From contig NZ_JACIEM010000003.1 in assembly GCF_014196845.1 (NCBI RefSeq), positions 434,001 through 498,000 on the forward strand: a stretch of DNA of 64,000 nt. The letters are read 5' to 3'. The stretch is from Aurantimonas endophytica (GTDB taxonomy: Bacteria > Pseudomonadota > Alphaproteobacteria > Rhizobiales > Rhizobiaceae). Made by a program: the position numbers and the translations under genes. This document shows positions 49,349 through 63,213 of the stretch, in pieces. Positions within the stretch are counted from its first letter, which is position 1; every line of letters starts with the position of its first letter. A model generated the notes under the pieces. That model was given only the letters and a program-made list of their open reading frames with translations. It was not told the origin of the DNA and did not search any database.

Positions 49349-50110
49349 CTACGAGGACACGTCTGCGCCGAAATACCTGTGCGAGATGGACGCGTAGGTG
49401 CCGTCTGCCTTCATTGCCTCGAGCGCCCGGTCGATCTCGGCGACGAGTTCGGGATTGCCCTTCTGGACGATGATGCCGGACGCTGCCGCCTCTTCCTGCG
49501 TGGCGACGATCTTCACCGGCGCGTCGGGCTTCTGCTTCTTGAAGTCGAGATAGGACAGATTGTCGTTGATCGTGGCATCCGCCCGTCCGGTCAGGACGAG
49601 CTGGATCGACTGGTCGAAGCCGTCCGTGCCGACGAGCGAGGCACCGGCCTCTTCCGCGAGCCTGCCGTAGTTCGACGTCAGCGACTGTGCCGCGCGCTTG
49701 CCTGCCAGGTCCGCGAACCCGGCGATCTCGTCGTTGTCGGCCTGCACGATGAGAACCGCCTTGGAGACGATGTAGGGCTGGGAGAAGTCAAATCGCGCCT
49801 GGCGCTCCTCGGTGATCCCGACCTGGTTGATGACCGCATCGTAACGGTCGGCGGCAAGGCCCGCGATCAACCCGTCCCATTTGCCTTCGACGAACTCCGC
49901 CTCCACGCCGAGCCGTTTAGCAACTTCCCGCCCGATCTCGACGTCGAAGCCGACGAGCGCGCCCGAGGCGTCATGGAACGTGAAGGGCGCGTAAGTGCCT
50001 TCCGTCCCGATACGCAAGGTGCCCGATGACCTCACGTCTTCGAGGCTTCCCGCAGACACGGCGCCGGAAAGCGCGAGGATGGCGGTGATGGTTGCTAGGA
50101 TGCGCTTCAT
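49349..50110 (-). CDS. Polar amino-acid ABC transporter substrate-binding protein (cystine-type)
   Basis: A 253-residue periplasmic binding protein with a signal peptide (KRILATITAILALSGAVSA). The mature domain has the type II signature SGTLRIGTEGTYAPFTFHD and GFDVEIGREVAKRLG, with the AVINQVGITEER hinge. The pattern is closest to FliY/TcyJ cystine-binding proteins; other polar amino acids are possible. It is the first gene of the three-gene ABC set, 121 bases before the permease. A LysR gene lies upstream. Confidence 0.9.
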   Translation of the reverse strand: MKRILATITAILALSGAVSAGSLEDVRSSGTLRIGTEGTYAPFTFHDASGALVGFDVEIGREVAKRLGVEAEFVEGKWDGLIAGLAADRYDAVINQVGITEERQARFDFSQPYIVSKAVLIVQADNDEIAGFADLAGKRAAQSLTSNYGRLAEEAGASLVGTDGFDQSIQLVLTGRADATINDNLSYLDFKKQKPDAPVKIVATQEEAAASGIIVQKGNPELVAEIDRALEAMKADGTYASISHRYFGADVSS

Positions 50111-50485
50111 TGCGTGGTTTCCTTCGAAGACGGGCGCTTTCGCGCGGTACCTCGAAGGTCGGAGTTCGTCAGACCATCCTCAAGGAATGGTTTGGCGTGT
50201 ATGGGCGCATCCGGGGTTTTCCGATCCAAAGCAGAGGCCAAGGTCGCGCGCGAAGCAGGCCGCAGCTTCCTGCCGTCGGCGCGCGGTCCATTCGCTTCTC
50301 GGAACTGCCGACCCTTGCACTCACCGGGAGAAGCGCGAAGGCCCGCCGTGGAGCCGTCGGGCACGGATGGATCCAGGTGCCGGTCGGCGATGCCGCGAGC
50401 TATCAGAGGAGCCTGCCCCCGCACGACAAACGCGCAACCGCATCGCATCGCGGGGAACACGAGAAGGAACGCGCGCGACGCCGGG
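50111..50485. other. Promoter region upstream of the cystine-type ABC operon
   Basis: These 375 bases lie between the LysR gene and the substrate-binding gene, both on the minus strand. No protein-like frame is present. The ABC operon promoter should be here, but I see no clear -35/-10 pair. Confidence 0.4.
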
Positions 50486-51391
50486 TTATTGCCGGGCGGC
50501 TAGGTCGATCGCCCCGAAATGCGGATCGTTCGCAAAGAGGTCCGTCATCAGATCCGCAAGCACCTGGACCTTCCGCTCGGAATGTCGGCCCGGCGGACGC
50601 ACGACATAGGCCCCGGCGGGGGGCGGCGGATGATCCGTCATGATCGGGACCAGCGCGCCGTCGGCCACGTAGTCGTAGACGATGCAGTTGGGAAGCCAGG
50701 CGATGCCAAGGCCCGCCGCGGCGGCGGCCGCAAGCGCCGCCGCGCTGTCGGCCTTGAAGCGGCCTTGCGGTTTGATCGTGACGATCTCGTTGCCATCCGT
50801 GAATTGCCACGCCTCGGTGCCCTGCATGAGGGCCTGATGGGCGGCAATCTCTCCGGGCTTGCGGGGGGCTCCATGCGCCTTGATGTAGTCCGGGCTGGCG
50901 ACGAGCGTCCCGTAGATCGGCCCCACCCGGCGGGCGAGCAGCTCGGAGTCCGGCAGGTACCCGACACGGACGGCGCAGTCGAAACCCTCCGCGACGAGAT
51001 CGACGAAGCGGTCGCTGTAGGCGGCATGGACGTGGAGATGGGGATGGCGCCGTGCCATGTCCGCGAGCACGGGGGCGAAGTGGGTCGGGCCGAAGGTCAG
51101 CGGCATCGCGACCCGTAGGCGTCCGCGCAGGTCGCCGGCCGGCCGGAGTGTCTCCTTTGCAGCCTCGATCTCGGCTCCGATCCTGCCTGCGTGTTCCCTG
51201 AAGATCGCGCCGGCCTCGGTCAGCGCAGCCCCGCGCGTGGTTCGCGCCAGGAGCTGGGCGCCGAGTTCCTCCTCCAGCCGGAGCAGCCTGCGGCTCACGA
51301 TCGACTTAGACACTCCGAGCCGACGTGCGGCGGCCGAGACTCCTTCCGCCTCCGCCACCTCGACGAAGGTCAGGATGTCCTCGATGTCCAT
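50486..51391 (-). CDS. LysR family transcriptional regulator
   Basis: A 301-residue LysR regulator with the N-terminal winged helix (FVEVAEAEGVSAAARRLGVSKSIVSRRLLRLEEELG) and a ~200-residue effector domain (LRVAMPLTFGPTHFAPVLADM onward). Length is normal. It is divergent from the YcaC-type hydrolase (154-base gap) and upstream of the cystine-type ABC genes, so either could be its target. Confidence 0.9.
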   Translation of the reverse strand: MDIEDILTFVEVAEAEGVSAAARRLGVSKSIVSRRLLRLEEELGAQLLARTTRGAALTEAGAIFREHAGRIGAEIEAAKETLRPAGDLRGRLRVAMPLTFGPTHFAPVLADMARRHPHLHVHAAYSDRFVDLVAEGFDCAVRVGYLPDSELLARRVGPIYGTLVASPDYIKAHGAPRKPGEIAAHQALMQGTEAWQFTDGNEIVTIKPQGRFKADSAAALAAAAAAGLGIAWLPNCIVYDYVADGALVPIMTDHPPPPAGAYVVRPPGRHSERKVQVLADLMTDLFANDPHFGAIDLAARQ

Positions 51392-51545
51392 TCACGTTCC
51401 CCTTTTTGCGACACAGCTACGCGCCAAGCCGCGCTACCCGCCCGACAGGTCCGCTGGCAAGGTTGCCGCGTTCCGGACGACGCACCGAGATCGACGTCGG
51501 TCCGCTTCGAAGTCAACTAAAGTCTTGATGGCACAGGAATTATCG

Positions 51546-52199
51546 ATGACGTTTCGTAACGGCCTTTCCTCACTTCTTCGTCCTGAGGACTCTGTCCTCG
51601 TCCTGATCGATCATCAGGCCTTTCAGCTTGCGAATGTGAACAGCCATGATCCTCAGGCTGTGGTCAACAACGTGACCGCGCTGGCGAAGCTGGCAAAAGC
51701 TTTCAAGGTTCCGACCATTCTCACCACCGTGCTTGCGGCTCGTGGCGGCCTTCTCTTCAAGCAGATCACCGACGTCTTCCCGGAGCAGGAGGTGATCGAC
51801 CGCACCTGGGTGAACACCTGGGAGGACGAGAAGGTGGTCGACCTGGTCAAGGCGACCGGGCGCAAGCAACTGATCATCGCGGGCCTGTGGACGGAGGTCT
51901 GCGTGGCGATGCCTGTCATCCAGGCCCTCGGCGAAGGCTGGGACGTGACCGTGATCACCGACGCGTCTGGCGGGGTGTCCACCGAGGCCCACGAGGTTGC
52001 CATCCAGCGGATGATTGCTGCTGGGGCGAACATGATGACCTGGATGGCATTGGCCGGCGAATGGCAGCGGGACTGGGCGCGCACCGAGCACGTCGAAGAG
52101 TTGACCGAGGTGCTTGTCTCCCATCTCGGCGGCACGGGGATCGCCTATCTGTGGGAGCAGCAGCTCTTGAACACGCCGGTGCCCGAGATCGCAGGCTGA
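51546..52199 (+). CDS. Isochorismatase-family hydrolase (YcaC-like)
   Basis: A 217-residue cysteine hydrolase. The catalytic triad positions are visible: Asp in LVLIDHQAFQ, Lys in LAKAFKVPTI (region), and Cys in GLWTEVCVAMPV. The order and length match YcaC-type hydrolases rather than nicotinamidase. ATG 51546 follows AGGAATTATCG with a good spacing; an upstream ATG at 51528 lacks a site. It is divergent from the LysR gene at 50486, the probable regulator. Substrate unknown. Confidence 0.87.
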   Translation: MTFRNGLSSLLRPEDSVLVLIDHQAFQLANVNSHDPQAVVNNVTALAKLAKAFKVPTILTTVLAARGGLLFKQITDVFPEQEVIDRTWVNTWEDEKVVDLVKATGRKQLIIAGLWTEVCVAMPVIQALGEGWDVTVITDASGGVSTEAHEVAIQRMIAAGANMMTWMALAGEWQRDWARTEHVEELTEVLVSHLGGTGIAYLWEQQLLNTPVPEIAG

Positions 52200-52220
52200 T
52201 CCGAGAGGGTCGGCCATCCG

Positions 52221-52249
52221 CAGCCCGGTCGCAGAGGGCGGCCGGGCTG
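52221..52249. terminator. Hairpin between convergent YcaC-type and HxlR genes
   Basis: Arms CAGCCCGG and CCGGGCTG pair perfectly (8 bp) over a 13-base loop, 22 bases after the YcaC-type stop. No T-run follows; it may act as a bidirectional terminator between the convergent genes. Confidence 0.4.
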
Positions 52250-52372
52250 GTGCTGCCTGATCGGCGGAGCAAGGCTGGGCTGGTGCGGCACTAGCCAGCA
52301 CTAGTCACTAACGACTGCAGTTTTCGACCCCCTTCTGCGGTCCGCGACGAGAAGCAGCGTGCCGAATAGCGG

Positions 52373-52771
52373 TCATCCTGAACCCGCTGCCTTCGCGCGA
52401 TCATGCGCTGCCTTGGCTTCTTCGATCTCGTCGCCATGGGCGAGCGCCCAGGCACAGAGGGCCTCGAAGGGCTGGCGCAGCGAATGGCCAAGCGGCGTGA
52501 TCGCGTATTCGACGCCGATCGGCGCCGTCGGCAACACGGTCCGCGTCACGAGACCATTGCGCTCCAGCCGCTTCAGCGCATCGGCCAACGCCTTATGGGT
52601 AATGCCATCGAGGCGTCGCTTGATCTCGTTGAAGCGCGACGGCTTCGGGCACAGCACCGTCAGGATCAGGATCGTCCACTTGTCGGCGATCTTGTCGAGA
52701 ACCGGACGCACGCGTGCCATGTCGTCGAGCGCGCACTGCGATAGAGCCTCGAGGTCGATATCATCGGGCAT
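52373..52771 (-). CDS. HxlR family winged-helix regulator
   Basis: A 132-residue regulator with the HxlR core: LDKIADKWTILILTVLCPKPSRFNEIKRRLDGI (partial: DKWTILILTVL), then THKALADALKRLERNGLVTRTVLPTAPIGVEYAITPLGHSL. Cysteines at CAL near residue 13 and VLCPKP near 41 could sense oxidants or electrophiles. It is divergent from the SDR at 52853, with an 81-base gap, and so probably represses that gene. Confidence 0.9.
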   Translation of the reverse strand: MPDDIDLEALSQCALDDMARVRPVLDKIADKWTILILTVLCPKPSRFNEIKRRLDGITHKALADALKRLERNGLVTRTVLPTAPIGVEYAITPLGHSLRQPFEALCAWALAHGDEIEEAKAAHDRAKAAGSG

Positions 52772-52852
52772 ATCTAGGCTATTCCAGGTGCGTTATTGCT
52801 ATCAGATACACAGCGTATACCTCTGCGCCATCACCGACGAAAGGACATCGTG

Positions 52853-53584
52853 ATGGTTGGAATGAGGGATAGGGTCGCACTCGTGGTGGGCGGCGCGAAG
52901 GGGATCGGTCTCGCCGTTTCGGAACGGCTGGCGGCCGAAGGCGCAATCGTGTTTCTCACCGGCCGACGCGCCGATGAGGTGGAACGGGCCGCCGCTTCGA
53001 TCGGCCGGGGAGCGACAGGTATCGTCGCGGACGCGAGTCGCCCGGAAGAGATGGTGCGGGTCGTGGACGAGGTTCGGGCGGCGCAGGGCCGCATCGACGC
53101 GCTGGTACTGAATGCCGGCATCTCGGAACCCGCGTCCATCGCCGAGATGACGCCCGACCATGTAGATCGTCACTTCACTGTCAACGTCCGGGGCGCCGCC
53201 TTCGGCTTGCAGGCTGCGCTCGGCGCGATGAGCGAGGGCGGATCCGTGGTGCTGATGGGATCGATCGCAGGTGTGGCGGGAATCGCCTCCTACGGCACTT
53301 ACGCGGCGACGAAGGCGGCGCTGCGCTCCTATGCGCGCACATGGACGGCGGAACTCGCACCGCGGGGTATTCGCGTCAACGTCGTGGCGCCGGGCCCGAC
53401 CGATACGGACATGATGGCAGCCGTGCCGGAAGACGTCCGTGCCACGTTGATCGCGCCGATCCCGATGGGCCGCATGGCGCGCCCCGAGGAGGTGGCCTCG
53501 GCGACGCTCTTCCTGCTTAGCGACGAGGCGAGCTTCATCGCCGGAGCCGAACTCTGTGTCGACGGCGGCATGCGGCAGGTCTGA
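52853..53584 (+). CDS. SDR family oxidoreductase
   Basis: A 243-residue short-chain dehydrogenase. The cofactor motif is VGGAKGIG (residues ~11-18), Arg-Arg in TGRRADE favours NADP, NAG occurs in VLNAGIS, and the catalytic pair is Ser in MGSIAG with YAATK. The end is CVDGGMRQV. HxlR regulators next to SDRs often respond to quinones or aldehydes, which suggests a detoxifying reductase; this is inference. Its stop lies 54 bases from the convergent DUF1989 operon end. Confidence 0.9.
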   Translation: MVGMRDRVALVVGGAKGIGLAVSERLAAEGAIVFLTGRRADEVERAAASIGRGATGIVADASRPEEMVRVVDEVRAAQGRIDALVLNAGISEPASIAEMTPDHVDRHFTVNVRGAAFGLQAALGAMSEGGSVVLMGSIAGVAGIASYGTYAATKAALRSYARTWTAELAPRGIRVNVVAPGPTDTDMMAAVPEDVRATLIAPIPMGRMARPEEVASATLFLLSDEASFIAGAELCVDGGMRQV

Positions 53585-53638
53585 CGCCCTCGTCATGAAC
53601 CGACGGCAGCCTTCGGGGGGTGCGAGACCCGAAAGCTG

Positions 53639-54355
53639 TCAGTCCGGTTTCCCGCCCAGATCGGAAACAGTTCCAGATAGGCGGGAGGGTACCCAACTGG
53701 ACGAAGCCGGAATGAAAGCAAAATCGTCTTCCAGCAGCACGAAATGCGCATCGCAAGGCGTGTTGGTGCCGCCGCCCTGAATAGGCACGATGTCCTGCGG
53801 GCAGGCCGAGAAGGCGACAACGCAGTCCATTTCCGCTCGCAGGCTGACATAGTCACCCGCCCGGCAGGGCGTTGGTCCGGTCAACAGGCTGCGGCCGTCC
53901 GCTCCGACTGCGATGTTCATGAAGATGTTGAACGAGGCGAGGATCGACGCGGGCGCCTCCAGGCCAAGATCGCGCACCGCCTCGTGCATGTTGTCGAGGC
54001 AATTGCGATGGTAGCCTTCGACACCGAGCAGCCGATAGCGGTGGCAATCGCAAGCCGCCATGAACGTATCGTGGATCCCGGGCGACGTGTCCTCGACCAG
54101 CGTCAGGATCGGGCGTCGCCGCGTGGTGACGAAGCTGTCCCCGACCAGCGGATTGAGCCGCTGGTTCCAGACGCGGCTCGCCTCCATCGACATGTGTTCG
54201 GACAGGTCTGCCGCGTTCCAGGCCCAGCAATCGACCACCTGCGTGCCATGGGTGTTGATCAGGCGCACGGTCTGACCGGCGGCAAGCACCACCGCCTTGC
54301 CATGGCCGGCGGGGATCGTCACCCGCCGCGCCGCCGTCATCGTATCCGGGGCCAT
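53639..54355 (-). CDS. DUF1989 protein, MSMExSR type (fourth DUF1989 gene of operon)
   Basis: A 238-residue DUF1989 (urea carboxylase-associated) protein. Seen residues: MSMEASR (55-61), GIHD with nearby CDCH (93-105), GYHRNCLDN (114-122), and SACPQDIVP (183-191). The Cys/His/Glu set looks like a complete metal or catalytic site. It has a ~40-residue C-terminal tail absent from its paralogue at 55636. The start may be ATG 54355 or the adjacent GTG 54358; both overlap the previous stop. DUF1989 pairs (CgdA/CgdB) are reported as carboxyguanidine deiminase in guanidine metabolism. Here it ends the ten-gene operon. Confidence 0.88.
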   Translation of the reverse strand: MAPDTMTAARRVTIPAGHGKAVVLAAGQTVRLINTHGTQVVDCWAWNAADLSEHMSMEASRVWNQRLNPLVGDSFVTTRRRPILTLVEDTSPGIHDTFMAACDCHRYRLLGVEGYHRNCLDNMHEAVRDLGLEAPASILASFNIFMNIAVGADGRSLLTGPTPCRAGDYVSLRAEMDCVVAFSACPQDIVPIQGGGTNTPCDAHFVLLEDDFAFIPASSSWVPSRLSGTVSDLGGKPD

Positions 54356-54984
54356 CACAAGGCATTCCCGACCAGGGCCCGAAGCGGACCCCTGCCATCG
54401 GCGATGCCCAGGTCGTTTGGGCCGGCGATCACGACGAAGCGGCAGTCGATGAGGACCCGGCAGGTGATCGAGCGGCCGGGCTTCGCGATGGCCGCAGTCG
54501 GGACCAGCCTGCCGTCGCGCTCTACCACGACGTCGAGGAAGAGGTTCACCGGGTCGGGGATCTTGGGCATGTCGAGCCGCGCCGCGCCAAGGGTTTCCAT
54601 CAGGATCTCGCGGGTGCCCTGCCCGTCGGGCCGTCCCGCCTGCGCCAGCGAGGCCCGGGTGGAGGCCGGCATCAGGAGGTCGTGCGCGCCGGCGCTGTCA
54701 CGGCCGAGCACCATCAGCGGGCGCCGGCGGTTGGTCACCAGACGCATTCCCAGCCCGAGCCGGTAGGAATTGCTGAACACCCGCGTATGGTGTGGCGACA
54801 GGAACTCGGCCGGATCCGCACGGGTGAAGGCGTAGAGCTGCGCGGCGCGGTCGCCGTCCATGTCCTCGATCGTCAGGAGCTGGCCCTGCCAGGCCTCGAT
54901 CACGGCCGCCGTCCCATGGGCGATCTCGACCGTGGTTTCGGCCGGCAGTTCCGCCGGGATCGGCGTTTTCATCAGCAGCGGCAT
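54355..54984 (-). CDS. DUF1989 protein, LSPxxTR type with lost Cys motifs
   Basis: A 209-residue DUF1989 paralogue. The fold-level pattern is retained (GQLLTIEDMDGDRAAQLYAF, ADPAEFLSPHHTR, LVTNRRRPLMVLG, DPVNLFLDV). However, the sites that are conserved in the other three copies are replaced: GAHDLLMPAST lacks Cys, no GxHxNCxDN segment exists (RPDGQGTREIL instead), and CPQD is GPND. It probably serves as a structural or regulatory partner of the intact neighbour at 53639. Its stop is coupled to that gene's start (TGATG). Confidence 0.85.
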   Translation of the reverse strand: MPLLMKTPIPAELPAETTVEIAHGTAAVIEAWQGQLLTIEDMDGDRAAQLYAFTRADPAEFLSPHHTRVFSNSYRLGLGMRLVTNRRRPLMVLGRDSAGAHDLLMPASTRASLAQAGRPDGQGTREILMETLGAARLDMPKIPDPVNLFLDVVVERDGRLVPTAAIAKPGRSITCRVLIDCRFVVIAGPNDLGIADGRGPLRALVGNAL

Positions 54985-54988
54985 CGTC

Positions 54989-55639
54989 TCAGCCTTCCAA
55001 CGACGTCGGGGGATCGTCCGAGACGGCGATCCGCATGTCGGTCACCACCAATCCGTTGCCGGGAATGATGTCCTGTGGGCAGGGGGACAGCGCGCAGGCA
55101 ACGTCCATCAAGGCCCGCAGCACCAGATGATCGCCCGGTCGGCTGATCGGATCGGTCACCGCCATGCGGCCGTCCGCGGTGACCGGGCCGTTCTGGAAGA
55201 AGTTGAACGGCTCTGGCACGTGCAGGGCATCGATCCCGTAGGGCGTCAGCGCCTCTGCCATGTTGTCGAGGCAGTTGCGATGCCCCGGTACGCCGAAATC
55301 GACGGCGTAGCGGGTCGGGTCGCAGGCCGGGACGTTGGAATCGTGGATGCCGACACTGTCGGCCACCACCTCGAACATCTCCCGCCCTTCGGACGACATC
55401 AGATGGTCCCCCAGAGCGAAGAACAGCGACAGGTTGCGCCGCCGGGTCTCGACGGGAGACAGAACCTCCCCGGGATCGGCGCGGCTGATCGCCACGAAAT
55501 CGCCGGCCTGGCGTCCGTGCAGGTCGATGAGGGTGATGTACTGGCCGGCCCTGGCCTCGAAGCCGTGGCCGAAGCCGCCCGGCACGACGGCGTCGTGGGC
55601 GAGCGCGGGCAAGCGCAGCGTCGCGGGCCCGGCGTTCAT
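54989..55639 (-). CDS. DUF1989 protein, LSPxxTR type with intact Cys motifs
   Basis: A 216-residue DUF1989 protein. It groups with the 54355 gene by ADPGEVLSPVETR (residues 54-66), yet keeps GIHDSNVPACD (97-107), GHRNCLDN (119-126) and SPCPQDIIP (185-193). The ATG at 55639 overlaps the preceding stop as ATGA, and the frame upstream of it belongs to antisense-like sequence. It is therefore translated with the MSMExSR-type protein at 55636, as expected for a heteromeric pair. Confidence 0.86.
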   Translation of the reverse strand: MNAGPATLRLPALAHDAVVPGGFGHGFEARAGQYITLIDLHGRQAGDFVAISRADPGEVLSPVETRRRNLSLFFALGDHLMSSEGREMFEVVADSVGIHDSNVPACDPTRYAVDFGVPGHRNCLDNMAEALTPYGIDALHVPEPFNFFQNGPVTADGRMAVTDPISRPGDHLVLRALMDVACALSPCPQDIIPGNGLVVTDMRIAVSDDPPTSLEG

Positions 55640-56241
55640 TTGCCCACCGTGAAATGCGCTTCCGTCGGCGGATGCCCGACGCCGTTGATCGGCAGGATGT
55701 CCTGCGGGCAGGCCGAGAAGGCAATGACGAGGTCCATCTCGGCGCGCAGCGCGACGTAGCTGCCCGGTGTCGAGACCGGCGCCTCGAAGGAAATCGTCCG
55801 GTCCGGCTTCACCGGGATGTTCATGAAGAGATTGAGCGGGCTCGGCGTCTCCGGCGCCTCCAGGCCCAGTTCGTGCATCGCCGCATGCAGATTGTCGGTG
55901 CAGTTGTCGTGATAGCCCTCGACGCCGAGAAAGGCGTAGCGGTATCTGTCGCAGGCTGCCACGATCGTGTCGTGGATGCCGCCGGACGTGTCCTCTACGA
56001 AGGTCAGGATCGGGCGCCGCTGGTTGGTCAGCATCGTGTCCCCGACCACCGGGATGATCTTCAGTATGTGCGCCCGGCTGTGCTCCATCGACATGAACTC
56101 GCCGAGGTCGTCCGCATTGAACGCCCAGGTGTCGACCACCTGGTCGCCATGGGTGTTGATCACCTTGACGATCTGCCCCTTCTTGACGGCATGCGCCTTG
56201 CCCCTGCGGGCGGGGATGGTCAGCATCGTGTTGTCCGACAT
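55636..56241 (-). CDS. DUF1989 protein, MSMExSR type (first DUF1989 gene of operon)
   Basis: A 201-residue DUF1989 protein closely similar to the 53639 product but without its C-terminal tail: FMSMEHSR (49-56), GIHDTIVAACD (88-98), GYHDNCTDN (109-117), SACPQDILP (176-184). The ATG at 56241 has AAGGAGCAACGACC upstream, and an earlier ATG at 56268 has no ribosome site. The complete Cys/His/Glu set suggests an active deiminase- or hydrolase-like enzyme. It follows the ureohydrolase gene by 23 bases. Confidence 0.88.
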   Translation of the reverse strand: MSDNTMLTIPARRGKAHAVKKGQIVKVINTHGDQVVDTWAFNADDLGEFMSMEHSRAHILKIIPVVGDTMLTNQRRPILTFVEDTSGGIHDTIVAACDRYRYAFLGVEGYHDNCTDNLHAAMHELGLEAPETPSPLNLFMNIPVKPDRTISFEAPVSTPGSYVALRAEMDLVIAFSACPQDILPINGVGHPPTEAHFTVGK

Positions 56242-56264
56242 GGTCGTTGCTCCTTGCTGAATGG

Positions 56265-57218
56265 TCATGATCGGGCTGGATGGGCTTCGCGCCAGCGGGG
56301 CTGGGCGCAGATCTCGCCCAGGAAGCCGATGACGATCGTCGCCGCCAGATAGGCTGTCGCCCCGGTGCCGACGTCGAGCGGCGGATTGACCTCGACAAGG
56401 TCGAAACCGGCGATCTCGTTACGCTCGGCGACCGCCTGCAGCGTATCGCGCAGCTCCGGATAGGTCATCCCGTCCGGCTCGCCCGACACGCAGCCCGGCA
56501 CCAGCGACATGTCGAGCGCATCGATGTCGATCGAGACATAGACCGGCTCGCCCGCCGGCAGGAGGGCCGCGATCCCGGCCGCGCCGAGGCGGCGAAACTC
56601 GGGCATCGGCACGACGCGGTTGCCGGCGGCCTCGATCGCCTCGTGCTGGCTGCGCTCGCTGCGCAGGCTCCGGATGCCGACCTGGGTGAGGCTCAGCGCC
56701 GTGTCGAGGCCGGCCATGTGCCGGAAGGCGTGGCCGTTGGTGAAGCGCAGCCCGTCCGCCTCGTCGGCATAGTCCATATGCGCGTCGAAATGCAGGATGT
56801 GCAGCGGCTGGTCGAAGGCGCGGAAGATCGGATAGGTGATGGAATGGTCGCCGCCGAGCCCGACGGGCAGCGCGCCGCGATCGAGGATGGCGCGCACCGT
56901 GCGCGTGATGTTCTCGAAGCTCTTCTCGACATTGGTCGGCGCGATGTCGACGTCGCCGATATCGGCGATCATCCCGCCGGCCATCTCGGTGGCGAGGAGG
57001 TCGCGCCGCGTCGCCGGGTCGTAGAGGCCGCCGGTGAAGCGCAGCGAATGCTCGCGCAGCGCCCTCGGCCCCATGCGGCTGCCCGGCAGGAAGGGCGATC
57101 CCTCGTCGAACGGGACGCCATAGACGGCGATGGCCGCATCGAGCCTGGCGAGATCCTCGCAGATCGGGGCGCGCAGGAAGGAAGGGATGCCGACATAGGG
57201 GCGGTCGATGCGGGTCAT
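56265..57218 (-). CDS. Ureohydrolase-superfamily enzyme 1 (agmatinase/guanidino hydrolase-like)
   Basis: A 317-residue binuclear-metal hydrolase of the arginase/agmatinase fold. Metal ligands are in GGDHS (122-126), DAHMDYAD (145-152) and SIDIDALD (229-236); the Pro that usually follows the last Asp is Met. Family members cleave guanidino groups to urea plus amine, and some nickel-dependent members hydrolyse free guanidine. ATG 57218 was chosen over a TTG five codons upstream. It lies between the ABC ATPase and the DUF1989 genes of the operon. It shares only moderate similarity with the second ureohydrolase at 60355, so distinct substrates or a hetero-oligomer are possible. Confidence 0.9.
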   Translation of the reverse strand: MTRIDRPYVGIPSFLRAPICEDLARLDAAIAVYGVPFDEGSPFLPGSRMGPRALREHSLRFTGGLYDPATRRDLLATEMAGGMIADIGDVDIAPTNVEKSFENITRTVRAILDRGALPVGLGGDHSITYPIFRAFDQPLHILHFDAHMDYADEADGLRFTNGHAFRHMAGLDTALSLTQVGIRSLRSERSQHEAIEAAGNRVVPMPEFRRLGAAGIAALLPAGEPVYVSIDIDALDMSLVPGCVSGEPDGMTYPELRDTLQAVAERNEIAGFDLVEVNPPLDVGTGATAYLAATIVIGFLGEICAQPRWREAHPARS

Positions 57219-57253
57219 GGCAATCTCTGGCAAGGGTCGGGTGCGGCGGCCGT

Positions 57254-58039
57254 TCAGCCGGCCGGCGGGGAGCGCTGGATGAGGCTGAGGAAGCTGGCGA
57301 GGCGCGGGTCCGACGGGCTGTCCAGCACCTTTCGCGCCGGGCCGTCCTCGACGATGCGGCCGGCATCCATGAAGACGATGCGGTCGGCCACCTGCCGGGC
57401 GAATCCGATCTCGTGGGTCACGACGATCATCGTCATGCCGGTGGCGGCGAGATCGCGCAGCAGCGCCAGCACCTCGCCGATCAGTTCCGGGTCGAGCGCG
57501 GAGGTCGGCTCGTCGAACAGCATCAGCGCAGGATCCATTGCCAGCGCACGGGCGATGGCGACGCGCTGCTTCTGCCCGCCGGACAGGGCATAGGGGTAGC
57601 GCTCGGCCAAGTCCGCCAGGCCAAGCCCGGCAAGCTGGGCGGCGGCGCGGGCTTCCGCCGCCTCGCGGGTCCGCCGCAGCACCACCATCTGCGGTCGCAC
57701 GATGTTCTCGCGCACGCTCATATGCGGCCAGAGATTGAGCTGCTGGAACACCATGCCGATGCGCGGGCGCATCGCGTCGATGGCCCGCCGGCTCTGGTGC
57801 CGGACCGTATCGCCGGTCAACGCTCGGCCGAACGGCTTGCCGTCCACCTCGATGAAGCCTTGGTCCGGCTGCTCCAACCAGGTCAGACAGCGTAGCAATG
57901 TGCTCTTGCCGCAGCCGCTGGGGCCGATGACGGCGACCACCTCGCCTTTAGAGACGTCAAGATAGATGTCGTCGAGGACGCGGTCGCGTCGGAACGACTT
58001 GGCAAGACCGCTCACCGAGAGGGCGAGATCCTGCTTCAT
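57254..58039 (-). CDS. Polar amino-acid-type ABC transporter ATPase
   Basis: A 261-residue ATPase: Walker A GPSGCGKST, signature LSGGQKQRVAIARA, Walker B LMLFDEPTSALDP, H-loop VVTHEIGFA. The Q-loop MVFQQLNLWPHMSV is typical of the HisP/GlnQ group. Its ATG overlaps the permease stop as ATGA, and the next gene, ureohydrolase 1, begins 35 bases on. It powers the import step of the operon. Confidence 0.93.
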   Translation of the reverse strand: MKQDLALSVSGLAKSFRRDRVLDDIYLDVSKGEVVAVIGPSGCGKSTLLRCLTWLEQPDQGFIEVDGKPFGRALTGDTVRHQSRRAIDAMRPRIGMVFQQLNLWPHMSVRENIVRPQMVVLRRTREAAEARAAAQLAGLGLADLAERYPYALSGGQKQRVAIARALAMDPALMLFDEPTSALDPELIGEVLALLRDLAATGMTMIVVTHEIGFARQVADRIVFMDAGRIVEDGPARKVLDSPSDPRLASFLSLIQRSPPAG

Positions 58040-58758
58040 GCCGCGCTCCGCTTGTCGAAGGAGAGGAAGCTTGCCGCCAGCGCGCTGCGTCCGACGTTCT
58101 CGCGCTCGGCCTGTCCGACGCGTGCTTCGAACAGGGCGGCAGCGCGGGCAAAGACGATGGAGATGGCCCAGTAGATCACCGTCACTGCCGCGAAGGCCTC
58201 GAAGGGCGCGAAGGTGTTCCCCTGCACGACGAGGCTCTGATAGGTCAGCTCGGCCACGGTGATCGAGCTCAGCACCGCCGATTCCTTGATCATCGTCAGC
58301 GTCATGTTGGTCGACGGCGGCACCAGGCCGCGCAGGATCTGCGGGAAGATCACGTGGCGCATCGCCTGGAGCGGCGACATGCCGATGACGCGGGCGGATT
58401 CGAACTGGCCGCGCGGCAGCGCCAGGATCGCGGCGCGGACGATCTCGGCGTAGTAGGCGCTTGCGAAGACCGCGAGGGCGAGCGTGCCGGTCACGACGGC
58501 CGGCATCCGCACGCCGGCGAAGGGCAGGCCGTAATAGACCAGGAACAGTATGATGATGAACGGGATCGCCCTGATCACCGCGACATAGGCGGCGACGAGG
58601 AAGCGCACGACGGGGTTCGGCACGAGCGCCAGCAGGGCGAGGACGATGCCAGCCGCATAGCCGAGCACGAAGGCGGCGGCGGTGATGCGGATGGTCAGCC
58701 AGGCCCCTTCGAGGAACAACGGCCAGTATTGCGCCAGGATGCCGAGGTCGAAGGTCAT
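58036..58758 (-). CDS. Polar amino-acid-type ABC transporter permease (second)
   Basis: A 240-residue inner-membrane permease of the HisM/HisQ family with about five to six hydrophobic segments and the EAA-type loop ESARVIGMSPLQAMRHVIFPQ. The C-terminal ~25 residues are polar and extend beyond the last helix. It is preceded four bases away by another permease gene, so the channel is probably a heterodimer. Confidence 0.92.
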   Translation of the reverse strand: MTFDLGILAQYWPLFLEGAWLTIRITAAAFVLGYAAGIVLALLALVPNPVVRFLVAAYVAVIRAIPFIIILFLVYYGLPFAGVRMPAVVTGTLALAVFASAYYAEIVRAAILALPRGQFESARVIGMSPLQAMRHVIFPQILRGLVPPSTNMTLTMIKESAVLSSITVAELTYQSLVVQGNTFAPFEAFAAVTVIYWAISIVFARAAALFEARVGQAERENVGRSALAASFLSFDKRSAA

Positions 58759-58762
58759 GGAG

Positions 58763-59422
58763 TCAGGCCCTCGCCATGCGCGTGCGGCGCTCGATGATCG
58801 TTCCGACGGCCATCACCGCGAGGTTGATGACGAGAAAGCAGAGCGCGGCGCCGACCAACGTCTCGAAGGGACGGTAGGTGGAGCTGGCGATCTGCTGCGC
58901 CGTGCGCAGCACTTCGACGACGGTGATGACCGACAGCAGCGCCGTTCCCTTCACGACGATGGTGATCTCGCTGACCAGCACCGGCGCGATGCGGCGGAAG
59001 AGCTGGGGCAGCACGATCCGCTGCCAGATCGCCCGTCGGGACAGGGCCAGCGCGCTCGCGGCCTCGATCTGGCCCGGATCGATGGTCTGGAGCCCGCCGC
59101 GCATGATCTCGGTGACGAAGATCGCGCTGTTGATGGAGATCGCGGCGATCCCCGCGGCCTCGGGCCGAAGATCGAGGCCGAAAGCGGGGGCGACATAATA
59201 GAAGGCGAAGATCTGGATCAGCAGGGGGGTGCCACGGATGAAGGAGATCAGGACGTTCAGCACCAGGTTGACCGGGCCGATCTTCATGACCCGGATGATG
59301 GTCAGCGCGGTCCCGCCAATGATCGACAGGGCCACGATGATCGCGGCGAGCCGCAGATTGACAAGCGCCGCCTCGGCGAGCGCCGGCATGACGGAGAAAA
59401 GGGTCGGGAACTGAAACGTCAT
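58763..59422 (-). CDS. Polar amino-acid-type ABC transporter permease (first)
   Basis: A 219-residue inner-membrane permease with the GTPLLIQIFAFYYV segment characteristic of this family and the EAA loop EAASALALSRRAIWQRIVLPQ. Its partner follows after a 4-base gap. It lies 27 bases downstream of the binding-protein gene. Substrate specificity resides mainly in the binding protein. Confidence 0.92.
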   Translation of the reverse strand: MTFQFPTLFSVMPALAEAALVNLRLAAIIVALSIIGGTALTIIRVMKIGPVNLVLNVLISFIRGTPLLIQIFAFYYVAPAFGLDLRPEAAGIAAISINSAIFVTEIMRGGLQTIDPGQIEAASALALSRRAIWQRIVLPQLFRRIAPVLVSEITIVVKGTALLSVITVVEVLRTAQQIASSTYRPFETLVGAALCFLVINLAVMAVGTIIERRTRMARA

Positions 59423-59449
59423 GGCACCCTTGCTCCGTCCTGGGCCAGA

Positions 59450-60307
59450 TCAGAGCGCGTCCGGCGGCAGGTAGCCGGTATCCGGGATGTCCATGCGGAA
59501 GCCGAACCACTTGTCCTGGAGCTCGCCGAGGCGGCCGTCGTCGCGCATCTCGCGGATCACGCCGCTGATGAAGTCGCGGAGGTCGGTGTCCTCGGGCCGG
59601 GTGACCCAGGCGAGATAGGTATAGGCCGAACCCGCCTGGACCGGACCGACGAGCTCGAATGTCTCCGGCCGCTGCTTGACGAGGACGGCGAGGTTCGGCA
59701 GCGACTGGATGACCGCGTCGATCTCGCCATTGGCGAGCGCAACGTAGGACTCGGTGAAGGCGGTATAGAGCTTCAGCTCGGAAAAGCCCTCGCCGCCGGC
59801 TTCCTTCAGCTTGGCGTCGAAATCGCGCGCCACCGGTTCGGTGGACGACGCGAGCTGCGTGCCGACCACTTTGCCCTCGAGATCCTCGGCGCTGGCGAGA
59901 TCGTCGCCGACGCGCTTCATCGCGTAGGGTTCGCCGTTGGCGATGGGCAGCGTGTAGGCGTAGCGGGCCGCCCGCTCCTCGTTGATGCCGACGGTGGTGG
60001 CGACGAAGTCGAACTTGCCGGCAAGGACGCCCGGCAGGATGCCCTGCCACGGCACGTCGAGCTGCTCGACCTCGACGTCCAGCGCCTTGACGACTTCGGC
60101 AAGGATGTCGCTGCCGTAACCGACGATCTTGCCGTCCTCGACGAACTCGAAGGGCGGGAAGGCGGCTTCCGTGCCCACCGTTACCTTGCCGGTGCGCTTG
60201 ATCTTCTCGAGCGTCGTCTCAGCCGAAGCGAGGTTGGGCGACAGGGCGCTGGCGAGAACCGCCGCGCCGGCAATGACGGCGAAGAATTTGCGGCTGATGA
60301 AGGACAT
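59450..60307 (-). CDS. Polar amino-acid-type ABC transporter substrate-binding protein
   Basis: A 285-residue periplasmic binding protein with a signal peptide (AVIAGAAVLASALSPNLASA). The mature part has TGKVTVGTEAAFPPFEFV and GYGSDILAEVVKALD, the type II polar-amino-acid pattern, with a central FDFVATTVGINEER. It is ~20-30 residues longer than GlnH, mostly at the C-terminus. AGGAGCCTTGC precedes the ATG. Its position between two ureohydrolases suggests a guanidino or basic ligand; residues contacting the ligand cannot be assigned from sequence alone. Confidence 0.9.
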   Translation of the reverse strand: MSFISRKFFAVIAGAAVLASALSPNLASAETTLEKIKRTGKVTVGTEAAFPPFEFVEDGKIVGYGSDILAEVVKALDVEVEQLDVPWQGILPGVLAGKFDFVATTVGINEERAARYAYTLPIANGEPYAMKRVGDDLASAEDLEGKVVGTQLASSTEPVARDFDAKLKEAGGEGFSELKLYTAFTESYVALANGEIDAVIQSLPNLAVLVKQRPETFELVGPVQAGSAYTYLAWVTRPEDTDLRDFISGVIREMRDDGRLGELQDKWFGFRMDIPDTGYLPPDAL

Positions 60308-60354
60308 GCAAGGCTCCTGTCTCGGTTGAGGGGGCTGGCGGAACCGCGTTTCGT

Positions 60355-61320
60355 CTACGCGGCGGGGGCTTCGAAATAGCCGGCGCGGACGGCGGCACCG
60401 ACAAGGTTCACGACGAGGCGGCCGGCAGTAATGCTGGTGATGTCGTTGACGTCGGCGGACGGCGTGATCTCGACGATATCCATGCCGAGGACGCGGCCCT
60501 TGCGGACCAGGCCGTGGATCAGCTTGCGAACCTGGTGGAAGGTGAGGCCGCCCGGCGCGGGGCCCTCGACGCCGGGCATGACCGAGGGGTCGAGGCCGTC
60601 CGCATCGATGGTGATGTAGTAGCGGCCGCCGTCGGGGATGCGGTCGATGATCGCGTCGATCCCCAGATCGTGGACCTCGAAAGCCGGGATGATATGCGCG
60701 CCGTAGGCGGCAGCGGCCTCGACCTCCTCCGGCCGGGCACTGCCCTGAGCACGGATGCCGATCTGGAAGATCTCGCCGACATGGGCAAGCTCGGATGCCC
60801 GGCGCATCGGGCTCGACAGCCCGTCGCGCACGCCGTTGACGTGGTCGCGCCAGTCTATGTGCGCGTCGACCTGGATCACCGTGACCGGCCCTTCGCCATC
60901 GAGGGCACGCAGGATCGGGATCGGGATGCCATGGTCGCCGCCGATGGTGATCGGCATGGCGCCAGCAGCGAGGATCTTGCGGATCGCCGCCTCGGCCCTG
61001 GCGAAATGGCTGTGGTGATCGGCGATATCGAAGGGCACGTTGCCGACATCGACGGCCTTGACGGGCCGGTTGTCGTAGATCGGCCCGCCTACGTCGTAAT
61101 CGTAACGCTCGAGCCCGCGGGTCACGCGATCGGTGACGCGTCGAACGGCGTCCGGCGCCTTGATCTGATCGTTGGATACGGCGTGCGGCTCATAGGCGTT
61201 GCCGTAGGGCATGCCGATGAAGACGATATCAGCATCGAGACCGTCAAGATCGTCGGAGAACGGCGCGAACAGGAGCGTCTCATGCGTCTTCGACGGCGGG
61301 ACGGTAAGAGGGAGCGTCAT
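60355..61320 (-). CDS. Ureohydrolase-superfamily enzyme 2 (agmatinase/guanidinobutyrase-like)
   Basis: A 321-residue binuclear-metal hydrolase: GGDHG (127-131), DAHIDWRD (152-159) and TIDADGLDP (237-245), all ligands present. It is the first gene of the ten-gene operon. The sequence around SSPMRRASEL and FQIGIRAQGS resembles guanidinobutyrase/agmatinase-like proteins more than arginase. GGAAGGCAGGCC precedes ATG 61320. It is divergent from a LysR gene across a 127-base region holding an 18-base dyad. The likely reaction is removal of urea from a guanidino compound, but the substrate is open. Confidence 0.9.
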   Translation of the reverse strand: MTLPLTVPPSKTHETLLFAPFSDDLDGLDADIVFIGMPYGNAYEPHAVSNDQIKAPDAVRRVTDRVTRGLERYDYDVGGPIYDNRPVKAVDVGNVPFDIADHHSHFARAEAAIRKILAAGAMPITIGGDHGIPIPILRALDGEGPVTVIQVDAHIDWRDHVNGVRDGLSSPMRRASELAHVGEIFQIGIRAQGSARPEEVEAAAAYGAHIIPAFEVHDLGIDAIIDRIPDGGRYYITIDADGLDPSVMPGVEGPAPGGLTFHQVRKLIHGLVRKGRVLGMDIVEITPSADVNDITSITAGRLVVNLVGAAVRAGYFEAPAA

Positions 61321-61340
61321 GGCCTGCCTTCCGATGGGGC

Positions 61341-61369
61341 CCACCTTTGAACCGAGGTGGCTTTTTTTT
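61341..61369 (+). terminator. Terminator-like hairpin with T8 in the LysR/operon divergent region
   Basis: A short stem (CCACCT/AGGTGG, 8-base loop) is followed by C and eight T residues on the plus strand. It is terminator-shaped but stands before the LysR gene with no plus-strand gene upstream. It could end antisense transcripts entering the operon leader, or form part of a leader structure. The stem is only six pairs. Confidence 0.35.
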
Positions 61370-61401
61370 GATCACTTCGCGATCGTGTTCTTTCGGAAGG
61401 C

Positions 61402-61419
61402 ACTTCGCAATTGCAAAGT
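61402..61419. promoter_or_regulatory. 18-bp dyad, candidate LysR binding site
   Basis: The sequence ACTTCGCAATTGCAAAGT is an inverted repeat with a single mismatched pair, centred between the divergent ureohydrolase operon and its LysR gene. Another copy of its left part (CACTTCGC) lies at 61373-61380, giving two half-site-like elements as often seen for LysR recognition and activation sites. It ends 28 bases before the lysR ATG. Confidence 0.65.
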
Positions 61420-61447
61420 CGGAAACCATGCTTGTAAGCTCCGCAAC

Positions 61448-62383
61448 ATGAGCCTTGCGCAGATCAAGCCGATCGACACGCTGACGGAGAACGATCTTCG
61501 GCTGATGCGGATATTCCGGGTCGTCGCCGAAAGCGGCGGGCTGAGCGCTGCGGAATTGCGGCTCAACATGGAGCGCTCGACGATCAGCCGGCACATCAAG
61601 GCGCTGGAGCTGCGGCTCGGCGGCTGCATATGCCTTCGCGGCCCATCAGGATTTGAACTGACCGAGCTTGGCCAGACTGTCCTCCAGGCTGCCATTTCAG
61701 CCTGTGATACGCTCGACACGGTGCGCGACCGTCTCAATCAGGCTCGCAACATCCTCACAGGCGACCTGGTTGTCGGTATCGCCGACAATTGCCTCAGCAA
61801 CCCGCGCTGCCGCGTTGCGATGGCGCTGGCCGAACTCAGCCGGGAAGCGCCGGCGCTGCGCCTCCACGTGGTCGTCCAGACCCCCGCCAATCTGGTGCGC
61901 GAGCTGCACGATCGCCGCGTGCACCTTTGCATCAACGGCGCCGTGTCGCACGACGAGGATTTCGTCCGGCACGAACTTTTCGATGAAGAATTCCGTCTCT
62001 ACGTGAACCGGAGCGCACACCGCGATCCGGTCGGCCTCAGCGATCTTCGCAACCTTGGGATCGGCGTCGTCACGCGCGTCGGAGATCCCTACAGCGAACG
62101 GCTGGCGGCCCGGCTCGGACTGCCCAATGATGCCGTCGCGGTCGGGCTGGAAGCGGTGGCGACCCTCATCGCAAGCGGCAGCTATGTCGGATTTCTACCA
62201 AAGCACTACGTCGATGTCCTTGCCTCGCGGTTCGTCTTCGAAGAAGTGCAGCAAGGCGAGACGCAACGCTACCGATCGCGCTTCTATCTCAATTACGAAC
62301 GCAGCCGGCCGCTCACCGCATCCGGGCGCCGCTTCCGTGATCTCCTGCAAGCCTGCCATCCAGAGCAGGCTCTCCCGGCCTGA
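61448..62383 (+). CDS. LysR family regulator, divergent from DUF1989/ureohydrolase operon
   Basis: A 311-residue LysR regulator. The winged helix covers about residues 13-75 (LRLMRIFRVVAESGGLSAAELRLNMERSTISRHIKALE), with an effector domain from ~95 (LTGDLVVGIADNCLSN onward). ATG 61448 was selected because the HTH starts soon after it; longer frames begin inside the promoter. It is the only regulator next to the ten-gene operon, 127 bases away, so it very probably controls it in response to the imported compound. Confidence 0.9.
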   Translation: MSLAQIKPIDTLTENDLRLMRIFRVVAESGGLSAAELRLNMERSTISRHIKALELRLGGCICLRGPSGFELTELGQTVLQAAISACDTLDTVRDRLNQARNILTGDLVVGIADNCLSNPRCRVAMALAELSREAPALRLHVVVQTPANLVRELHDRRVHLCINGAVSHDEDFVRHELFDEEFRLYVNRSAHRDPVGLSDLRNLGIGVVTRVGDPYSERLAARLGLPNDAVAVGLEAVATLIASGSYVGFLPKHYVDVLASRFVFEEVQQGETQRYRSRFYLNYERSRPLTASGRRFRDLLQACHPEQALPA

Positions 62384-62411
62384 TCGAGTTCTGGAATAGA
62401 GCACTGCGCTG

Positions 62412-62675
62412 CCTGCATGCGTCATCGCCATGGAGGCTTGTTGCGGCGCGCACTTCCTGGGACGCACCTTCGCCGGTCACGGCCACGAGGTGCGGCTGAT
62501 GTTGCCCGAGTACGTGCAGCCCGACGTCAAGGTGCAGAAGACCGATGACCGGGATGCGAAGGCGATCGCCGAGGCGGCCACGCGGCCGACCATGCGGTTC
62601 ATGTCGCTGAATTCCGAGGCGCAGCTCGACGTGCAGGTACTGCACCGTGCGCGCGAGCGGCTGGTGCGGTCTGTA
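62412..62675 (+). mobile_element. IS110-family transposase fragment
   Basis: Translation in the frame containing ATG 62430 gives VIAMEACCGAHFLGRTF, HEVRLMLPEYVQP and DAKAIAEAATRPTMRF, ending HRARERLVRS. These are the typical N-terminal (DEDD-domain) segments of IS110/IS1111 transposases. Similarity starts abruptly about 30 bases after the LysR stop and stops near 62675; the rest of a ~340-residue transposase is missing and no complete ends are visible. It is a dead remnant at the edge of the LysR/DUF1989 block. Confidence 0.85.
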
Positions 62676-62739
62676 CTCCTCGAACGCGGGCTCTCTGCCC
62701 CGAGCGTCGGCGATGCAGCGGATCGAGCGAATGGTCGCG

Positions 62740-63213
62740 TCAGACGAAGGCGATCCAACGGCCTGCGAAGACGGCCGCCAGCCAGAGAACGAGGGAGGTC
62801 GCCGCGGCGACCGACCCCCGCCCTCTCCGAACCATGCCGGCCAGATCGCTGCCATGGGCGAACAGACGCAGTGCCCCCGCGTTGCCGCCTGCTACGGCAA
62901 GGATGGCAAGCTTGGAGAGAAACGCCGGGTTCTGTGCGTAGCTTCCGATGCGGACCGACGCGAGCAGAAGGCCGCTCGCGGCGGCTAGCCCAAACCCCGC
63001 CAGCGCCATTCGGATCAGTGTGGGCATCACCGCGTCGAATTTCGGTCCGAGAATGCCCAGAAGACGGAAGTCCACCGGAGCGATCGATCCGACCAGGATG
63101 CCGATACCGAGGACGTGAAGGGCCGAGATCGTGGGGTATGCTCCCGGCACCGTAGCGATCAGACGAACGATCTGCAGTCCCTCGACCCACTCGAAGACAA
63201 CCGTCAGCTGCAT
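62740..63213 (-). CDS. DUF6644-like integral membrane protein
   Basis: A 157-residue protein with four hydrophobic segments: ISALHVLGIGILVGSIAPVDFRLLG near residues 29-53, then LAGFGLAAASGLLLASV, LAILAVAGGNAGAL and LVLWLAAVFAGRW. The HxLG-x-G-D-x-R-L-L-G pattern is typical of the DUF6644/DUF2214-like family seen with molybdenum hydroxylase clusters. Function unknown. It overlaps the DUF6152 gene by 10 bases and probably belongs to its operon. Confidence 0.75.
   Translation of the reverse strand: MQLTVVFEWVEGLQIVRLIATVPGAYPTISALHVLGIGILVGSIAPVDFRLLGILGPKFDAVMPTLIRMALAGFGLAAASGLLLASVRIGSYAQNPAFLSKLAILAVAGGNAGALRLFAHGSDLAGMVRRGRGSVAAATSLVLWLAAVFAGRWIAFV

Follow-up and report, generated by a model that had tools for sequence, protein, structure and literature searches.

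A Rare Ten-Gene Operon of Aurantimonas endophytica With Four DUF1989 Genes and Two Ureohydrolase Genes Appears to Join Two Smaller Catabolic Modules

A Ten-Gene Operon With a Complete Importer

What does a bacterium import and degrade with an operon that holds four DUF1989 genes, two arginase-family ureohydrolase genes and a complete ATP-binding cassette (ABC) importer? We addressed this question for a stretch of 64,000 nucleotides from Aurantimonas endophytica (GCF_014196845.1, contig NZ_JACIEM010000003.1, positions 434,001 to 498,000; hereafter the window), in which ten minus-strand genes occupy positions 53639-61320. Comparison with other genomes indicates that this operon consists of two catabolic modules joined behind one importer, because smaller forms of one module (module II, the ureohydrolases, importer and first DUF1989 gene) exist and the other three DUF1989 genes stand alone elsewhere with their own importer (module I).

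All ten genes were confirmed to be present, in the order UH1-SBP-PM1-PM2-ATP-UH2-A-B-C-D. They encode the ureohydrolase UH1 (60355-61320), the periplasmic family-3 solute-binding protein SBP (59450-60307), the ABC permeases PM1 (58763-59422) and PM2 (58036-58758), the ATPase of polar-amino-acid type ATP (57254-58039), the second ureohydrolase UH2 (56265-57218, with an alternative TTG start at 57233), and the DUF1989 proteins A (55636-56241, with an alternative ATG start at 56268), B (54989-55639), C (54355-54984), and D (53639-54358). When the internal ATG starts of UH2 and A are taken, the intergenic gaps from 5' to 3' are 47, 27, 4, -4, 35, 23, -4, 4, and -4 bp. This tight spacing, together with synteny in other genomes, bears out the single operon seen in an earlier, sequence-only reading of the window. 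Predictions between 53400 and 61600 yielded a single promoter-like site and three terminator-like ones, which is not above the shuffled sequences (means of 0.8 and 3.0).

Pfam assigned the Arginase family (PF00491) to both ureohydrolases, SBP_bac_3 (PF00497) to SBP, BPD_transp_1 (PF00528) to both permeases, ABC_tran (PF00005) to the ATPase, and DUF1989 (PF09347) to A, C, and D. Protein B was recovered by a PF09347 search of the whole genome, which found the four operon copies and a fifth on another contig. The genome also has five arginase-family genes, two of them in the operon. The operon thus has the gene content of a polar amino-acid ABC importer (SBP_bac_3, two permeases, and one ATPase); the sequence-only reading had noted a complete ABC importer. 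The best NCBIfam models for the ATPase were cystine, glutamine, and ectoine importers, all under their cut-offs.

Conservation and Modular Structure

The ten-gene form is rare. The same order was found in three further genomes, namely G087, in which all ten genes share 64-90% identity with those of the window, Antarcticirhabdus (locus L051), and Jiella (locus L052), making four genomes with that of A. endophytica. Since the same ten genes recur in the same order in these three relatives, their arrangement goes beyond chance. Matches to window C at E ≤ 1e-10 were found in 75 of the 397 genomes of the order, just four of them at ≥45% identity, and at E ≤ 1e-60 none of 385 genomes of the class other than that of the window had a match to window B.

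A profile scan of named genome contigs with an alignment of C gave the 64 loci (L051 to L114) on which our counts are based; the same scan with a single C sequence gave no matches. Two pairs of loci (L042 and L111, L043 and L110) are apparently identical contigs retrieved from two collections and hence not independent. The hosts of the 64 loci include Pantoea, Rahnella, Enterobacter, Pseudomonas, Paraburkholderia, Caballeronia, Herbaspirillum, several alphaproteobacteria, and others. B lies in the same block as C in every locus and D in 61 of them; the D-less blocks of L056 and L101 stop at a contig edge, and L058 carries D on the opposite strand. Module I stands alone (B-C-D and an importer, no UH1) in 59 of the 64 loci, 57 of which have an RpiR-type gene, and is merged with module II in two (L051, L052). 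The module-I operons of Paraburkholderia, Caballeronia, Pantoea, Pseudomonas, and others (SBP-B-C-PM1-PM2-ATP-D, with RpiR) resemble the window operon in holding relatives of B, C, and D in one block, but they lack UH1, UH2, and A, their own importer has an amino-acid-type site, and 12 loci contain an allantoicase gene. No ATPase gene was present in the block in 32 of the 59 stand-alone loci (e.g., L079:8404-12616), which include Enterobacterales and Pseudomonas; one of these loci, L104, ends at a contig edge. Outside the 64 loci, a Palleronia plasmid (L049), the only annotated record examined, carries module I under the generic name 'urea carboxylase-associated family protein.'

Module II also occurs by itself. 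The arrangement UH1-SBP-PM1-PM2-ATP-UH2-A was found in G671 (L145) at 72-86% identity and in G218 (L209) at 71-82%, and the surrounding 19-19.5 kb of either genome contained no match to B, C, or D. Six genes in module-II order, without A, are present in G298 (L217), and G335 (L220) has only the importer and UH1 (SBP-PM1-PM2-ATP-UH1); in G262 the cluster runs into a contig end after PM2. Gene content therefore forms a graded series, from the importer with UH1, through the addition of UH2 and then of DUF1989-A, to the addition of B-C-D. The modules may have been assembled in that direction, from smaller to larger. One could also regard the ten genes as fortuitous neighbors, i.e., co-inherited nitrogen-scavenging genes without a common substrate, given that module I is found far more often without module II than with it. 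However, four genomes keep all ten genes in one order and the gaps in the window are tiny, and we consider this explanation highly improbable.

Ligand Type of the Binding Proteins

For the binding proteins, we take one Arg position to be the residue that binds the ligand carboxylate. An Asp position is presumably the residue that binds the ligand ammonium group. We compared SBP rows from open reading frames (ORFs) near C, which left out loci without such an ORF (e.g., L098, L056, and L058). The Arg was present in 69 of 69 rows. At the ammonium position, the 60 module-I rows had Asp in 58 cases, Ser in one (L104), and a gap in one. Among nine module-II rows, six had Ser (window, L041, L051, L052, L145, and L044), with Ala in L147, Thr in L047, and Asp in L046; further module-II rows had Ser (L209, L210), Asn (L220), or Thr (L217). 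The window SBP and its four closest module-II rows all have Ser. Because the Arg is universal and the Asp is kept in module I but mostly replaced in module II, these residues suggest that the module II ligand is a carboxylate without a free alpha-ammonium group and that the module I ligand is amino-acid-like.

Two Ureohydrolases With Intact Metal Ligands

UH1 and UH2 both retain the GGDH, DAHxD, and DxD motifs and the Glu (GGDH, DAHID, DADGLD, and VEITP in UH1), with the metal ligands H, D, H, D, D, D intact, which upholds their earlier identification as two ureohydrolases. Neither reached the agmatinase cut-off of 174.3 (scores of 146.7 and 154.3). Based on family knowledge and on these intact ligands, both enzymes probably release urea. 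Known ureohydrolases act on guanidino or formimino groups and are not known to act on ureido groups. DUF6282 genes lie near UH1 relatives in three of nine places without a similar importer in line (L211:7903-8889, L215:10965-11942, and L216:3095-4114), and MmgE/PrpD-family genes lie inside two of five UH1-importer clusters (L220:9876-11294 and L214:12638-14116).

Two known systems invite comparison. Metformin hydrolase (MetCaCb/MefH) also has two ureohydrolase genes per cluster, but one of its subunits lost the metal ligands, according to the accessible parts of PMC11271267 and PMC11399263. Since the ligands are intact in both UH1 and UH2, an active/inactive pair of this kind was ruled out; in addition, no nickel chaperone gene is among the ten and four transporter genes separate UH1 from UH2. 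The guanidinase GdmH combines a protein of the ureohydrolase family with an ABC importer in one operon, as here (accessible part of PMC12186494), and its Thr and Trp determinants are described in the accessible part of PMC11410670. In pairwise alignments, the positions of Synechocystis GdmH Thr97 and Trp305 correspond to Asn/Ala and Gly in UH1 and to Ser/Pro and Ser in UH2; the GdmH chain numbering leaves two adjacent Thr columns possible, neither of which is Thr in UH1 or UH2. As these determinants are not kept, we rejected UH1 or UH2 as a guanidinase.

Three Motif-Bearing DUF1989 Proteins and One Without the Motif

In the trimethylamine N-oxide (TMAO) demethylase Tdm, C263, C279, and C343 are Zn ligands, and H276 and D346 are candidate Fe ligands (PMC12560246, accessible part). 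The equivalent letters read CHCCD in window A, B, and D and are absent in C. We counted this motif in related rows (matches of >130 residues, labeled A, B, or D by best match, and including the UAAP1/UAAP2 pair of L047 and a second DUF1989 protein of L097). CHCCD was found in 8 of 8 A rows, 66 of 67 B rows, and 57 of 66 D rows (seven more have CHCCE), and in none of the 66 C rows; the single B row without it fits UAAP2 of L047. A aligned to PDB 3ORU with 208.8 bits. Despite the missing motif, C has 37 invariant columns in 22 rows, including the stretch around HTRVFSNS and GMR, and its predicted structure (pLDDT 85.2) matches DUF1989 structures, with a TM-score of 0.80 to 3SIY. C is probably a non-catalytic partner subunit, because its motif is lost and yet the protein is conserved and modeled in the DUF1989 fold.

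In a tree built from 57 rows of the collection, A, B, C, and D each formed a group of their own, with A and D together and all four outside a six-row UAAP group, although long branches, some of them UAAP, make the deep placements unsure. The proposal of two DUF1989 pairs in the sequence-only reading did not survive. The full motif is present in the sister types A and D and also in B, and only C lacks it; moreover, the comparison of operons keeps B-C-D together and places A with the ureohydrolases.

Tdm shares the CHCCD motif with A, B, and D, and it also pairs a motif-bearing with a cysteine-less DUF1989-like domain (PMC12560246, accessible part). The window proteins, however, are separate polypeptides; DUF1989 is the sole Pfam domain of A, C, and D, none of which has a GcvT domain, and their NF053776 scores were 32.8-118 against a cut-off of 1100. 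If the CHCCD proteins cleaved N-methyl or hemiaminal C-N bonds, the substrate would be a guanidino acid with an N-alkyl group, for example a relative of creatine. The match to Tdm C263, H276, C279, C343, and D346 fits such chemistry, as do RidA-type genes, found next to A in L047, L158, and L160 and within the block of module I in L110. Still, the ten genes encode neither a GcvT domain nor a folate enzyme or an aldehyde-handling protein, and CHCCD is so common in the aligned DUF1989 rows that it may not predict chemistry, making a demethylase or lyase of this type quite unlikely.

A has recurrent neighbors in other alphaproteobacteria, at approximately 60-70% identity. On plasmids of Aminobacter and Streptomyces, DUF1989 genes are located near amidase and polysaccharide-deacetylase genes (L180:6447-9472 and L050:9986-14951). 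In the accessible part of PMC8319176, a DUF1989 gene is merely an entry in a table.

Relation to Guanidine Degradation

DUF1989 proteins are also part of the CgdAB (UAAP1/UAAP2) guanidine carboxylase pathway. In its operon on a Novosphingobium capsulatum plasmid (L178), for example, DUF1989 proteins, one of them cysteine-less, are encoded 3' of an ABC importer, as here. The two UAAP1 proteins we aligned lack the cysteines, and the two UAAP2 proteins keep them but not the His and Asp; window A, B, and D keep all. The window operon further differs in its three motif-bearing DUF1989 proteins, in its importer type, and in having neither a carboxylase nor an allophanate hydrolase gene, so that the absence of these two partners from the ten genes, pointed out before, holds. 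In the genomes of A. endophytica, G087, G671, Antarcticirhabdus (G777), and Jiella (G778), no urea/guanidine carboxylase passed the curated cut-off; allophanate hydrolase was looked for among the ten genes and is absent there. A, C, and D did not reach the cut-off of TIGR03424 (284.7; 116.6, 49.5, and 86.9 bits, respectively) or TIGR03425 (205.95; 70.8, 43.3, and 67.4 bits). The identity of A-D with CgdAB was rejected by these scores for A, C, and D and by the tree for all four. An Rfam scan of 50000-63000 gave no family at threshold, guanidine riboswitches included.

Guanidine genes do occur near relatives of the operon. In G741, a guanidine-I riboswitch (L185:6563-6688) is followed by UAAP1, UAAP2, carboxylase, allophanate hydrolase, and importer genes, approximately 6 kb from a block with ureohydrolase, importer, and A genes. 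In G052 (L047:6331-8990), UAAP1 and UAAP2, both over the cut-off, come after RidA and DUF1989-A genes, with an importer. These two cases, and the lack of a guanidine carboxylase over the cut-off in the five genomes above, would agree with an operon that imports guanidine, or frees it from a conjugate, and uses UH1 or UH2 as its guanidinase. Against this stand the replaced Thr and Trp determinants in both enzymes and the lack of a nickel chaperone gene and of a riboswitch at gathering score, and we judge free guanidine a very unlikely substrate.

Links to Allantoicase and Urease

An allantoicase gene (PF03561) follows D in the block in 12 of the 64 loci and the other 52 have no linked copy, ruling out that module I always comes with allantoicase. 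The linked allantoicases do not form a single clade (p-AU 1.4e-53), and at least two changes are needed on their tree, suggesting that allantoicase was recruited beside B-C-D at least twice. At 90%, linked and unlinked allantoicases are told apart by a single alignment column, and therefore the activity of the linked enzymes is probably kept. Of the four allantoicase genes in Paraburkholderia xenovorans LB400 (G786), two lie next to B-C-D operons (L103 and L114). The accessible part of a study on the allantoicase of P. phymatum (PMC5979394) mentions no DUF1989 gene. Among 20 genomes searched, allantoicase was found in eight (none in 12) and urease alpha in 17. The A. endophytica genome has both, approximately 10 kb apart.

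These linked genes, of more than one clade and probably active, would fit a ureide pathway in which the substrate of B-C-D is allantoate or a closely related compound (ureidoglycolate, ureidoglycine, or an analog with a guanidino group) and the window ureohydrolases replace the urea-releasing step of allantoicase. However, most loci have no linked copy, 12 of the 20 genomes have none at all, the A. endophytica gene lies approximately 347 kb from the operon on the same contig, and ureohydrolases are not known to act on ureido groups. We regard this pathway as rather unlikely.

Proposed Function of the Operon

The best-supported statement is that the operon catabolizes, in modular fashion, a carboxylate carrying a guanidino or ureido group, and that it merges two modules for this purpose; we give this reading an even chance. 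The compound imported by module II would be a carboxylic acid, probably with a blocked amino group (either a ureido acid or, most likely, a guanidino acid), and UH1 and UH2 would split urea off it. DUF1989-A, a putative Zn/His/Asp metalloenzyme, may act on a C-N bond in this compound or in its product. Module I, i.e., B with its motif-less partner C, and D, would take the remaining nitrogen-rich product further, and the urea would pass to the urease encoded in the genome. The guanidine genes close to the A modules of G052 and G741 also speak for this reading. Gene content, order, modularity, motif state, and SBP residues were observed directly; the substrate, the order of steps, a B-C complex, and the choice between deiminase and lyase chemistry for the DUF1989 proteins are what we infer from them.

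Several observations weigh against this proposal. UH1 has a similar importer in line in only 5 of 14 fetched places (L209, L210, L214, L217, and L220). A is not tied to ureohydrolases, as just two of 20 fetched A places (L145 and L147) have one nearby; outside these 20, ureohydrolase genes do accompany A and an importer in G285 and on contig 24 of G087. D shares just 43-50% identity with window D in seven module-I loci, and both of the proteins from these loci that were placed in the tree fall outside its A and D group. The module-II SBP of L046 retains the Asp and the module-I SBP of L104 has Ser. No guanidine riboswitch reached the gathering score in 50000-63000 of the window or in L041, L051, or L145. 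Finally, G052 has no carboxylase over the cut-off despite its UAAP1 and UAAP2, and therefore the link to guanidine is not straightforward.

A more elaborate version of the proposal is conceivable but doubtful. The operon would be a composite pathway for one compound with both guanidino and ureido nitrogen, the CHCCD DUF1989 proteins would be a general class of C-N-breaking metalloenzymes, and B would work only with C. The modules would have been added to the importer with UH1 in the order UH2, A, and B-C-D, and other lineages would have completed B-C-D with allantoicase rather than with ureohydrolases. As for the sequence-only interpretation as a whole, its single operon, importer, two ureohydrolases, and missing guanidine-carboxylase partners stand, its two DUF1989 pairs do not, and stepwise removal of nitrogen from a guanidino or ureido compound is still plausible.

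Neighboring Genes

A LysR-family gene (PF00126 and PF03466; 61448-62383, plus strand) is divergent from the operon and is a candidate regulator by its position only. Just past it, a weak match to an IS110-type transposase (PF01548) was found at 62430-63155. A further SBP_bac_3 gene lies at 49349-50110 and a LysR-family ORF at 50486-51391.

Significance

The ten-gene combination was not known as a described pathway in the sequence-only reading, and our literature search likewise found no published description of it or of the module-I operon in titles and abstract openings, a coverage that excludes most subscription journals. The comparisons above indicate that the ten-gene set is built from smaller modules that occur in many bacteria, and that it probably imports and dismantles a nitrogen-rich acid. 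Few reactions have been assigned to DUF1989, and those encountered here are carboxyguanidine deiminase and TMAO demethylase. The B-C-D unit has a wide distribution, as the hosts of the 64 loci show. The stand-alone modules make the question of the substrate directly testable in laboratory soil strains. Knowing the substrate would give a function to as many as four types of DUF1989 protein and to two ureohydrolases together, and would show which nitrogen source the host bacteria compete for.

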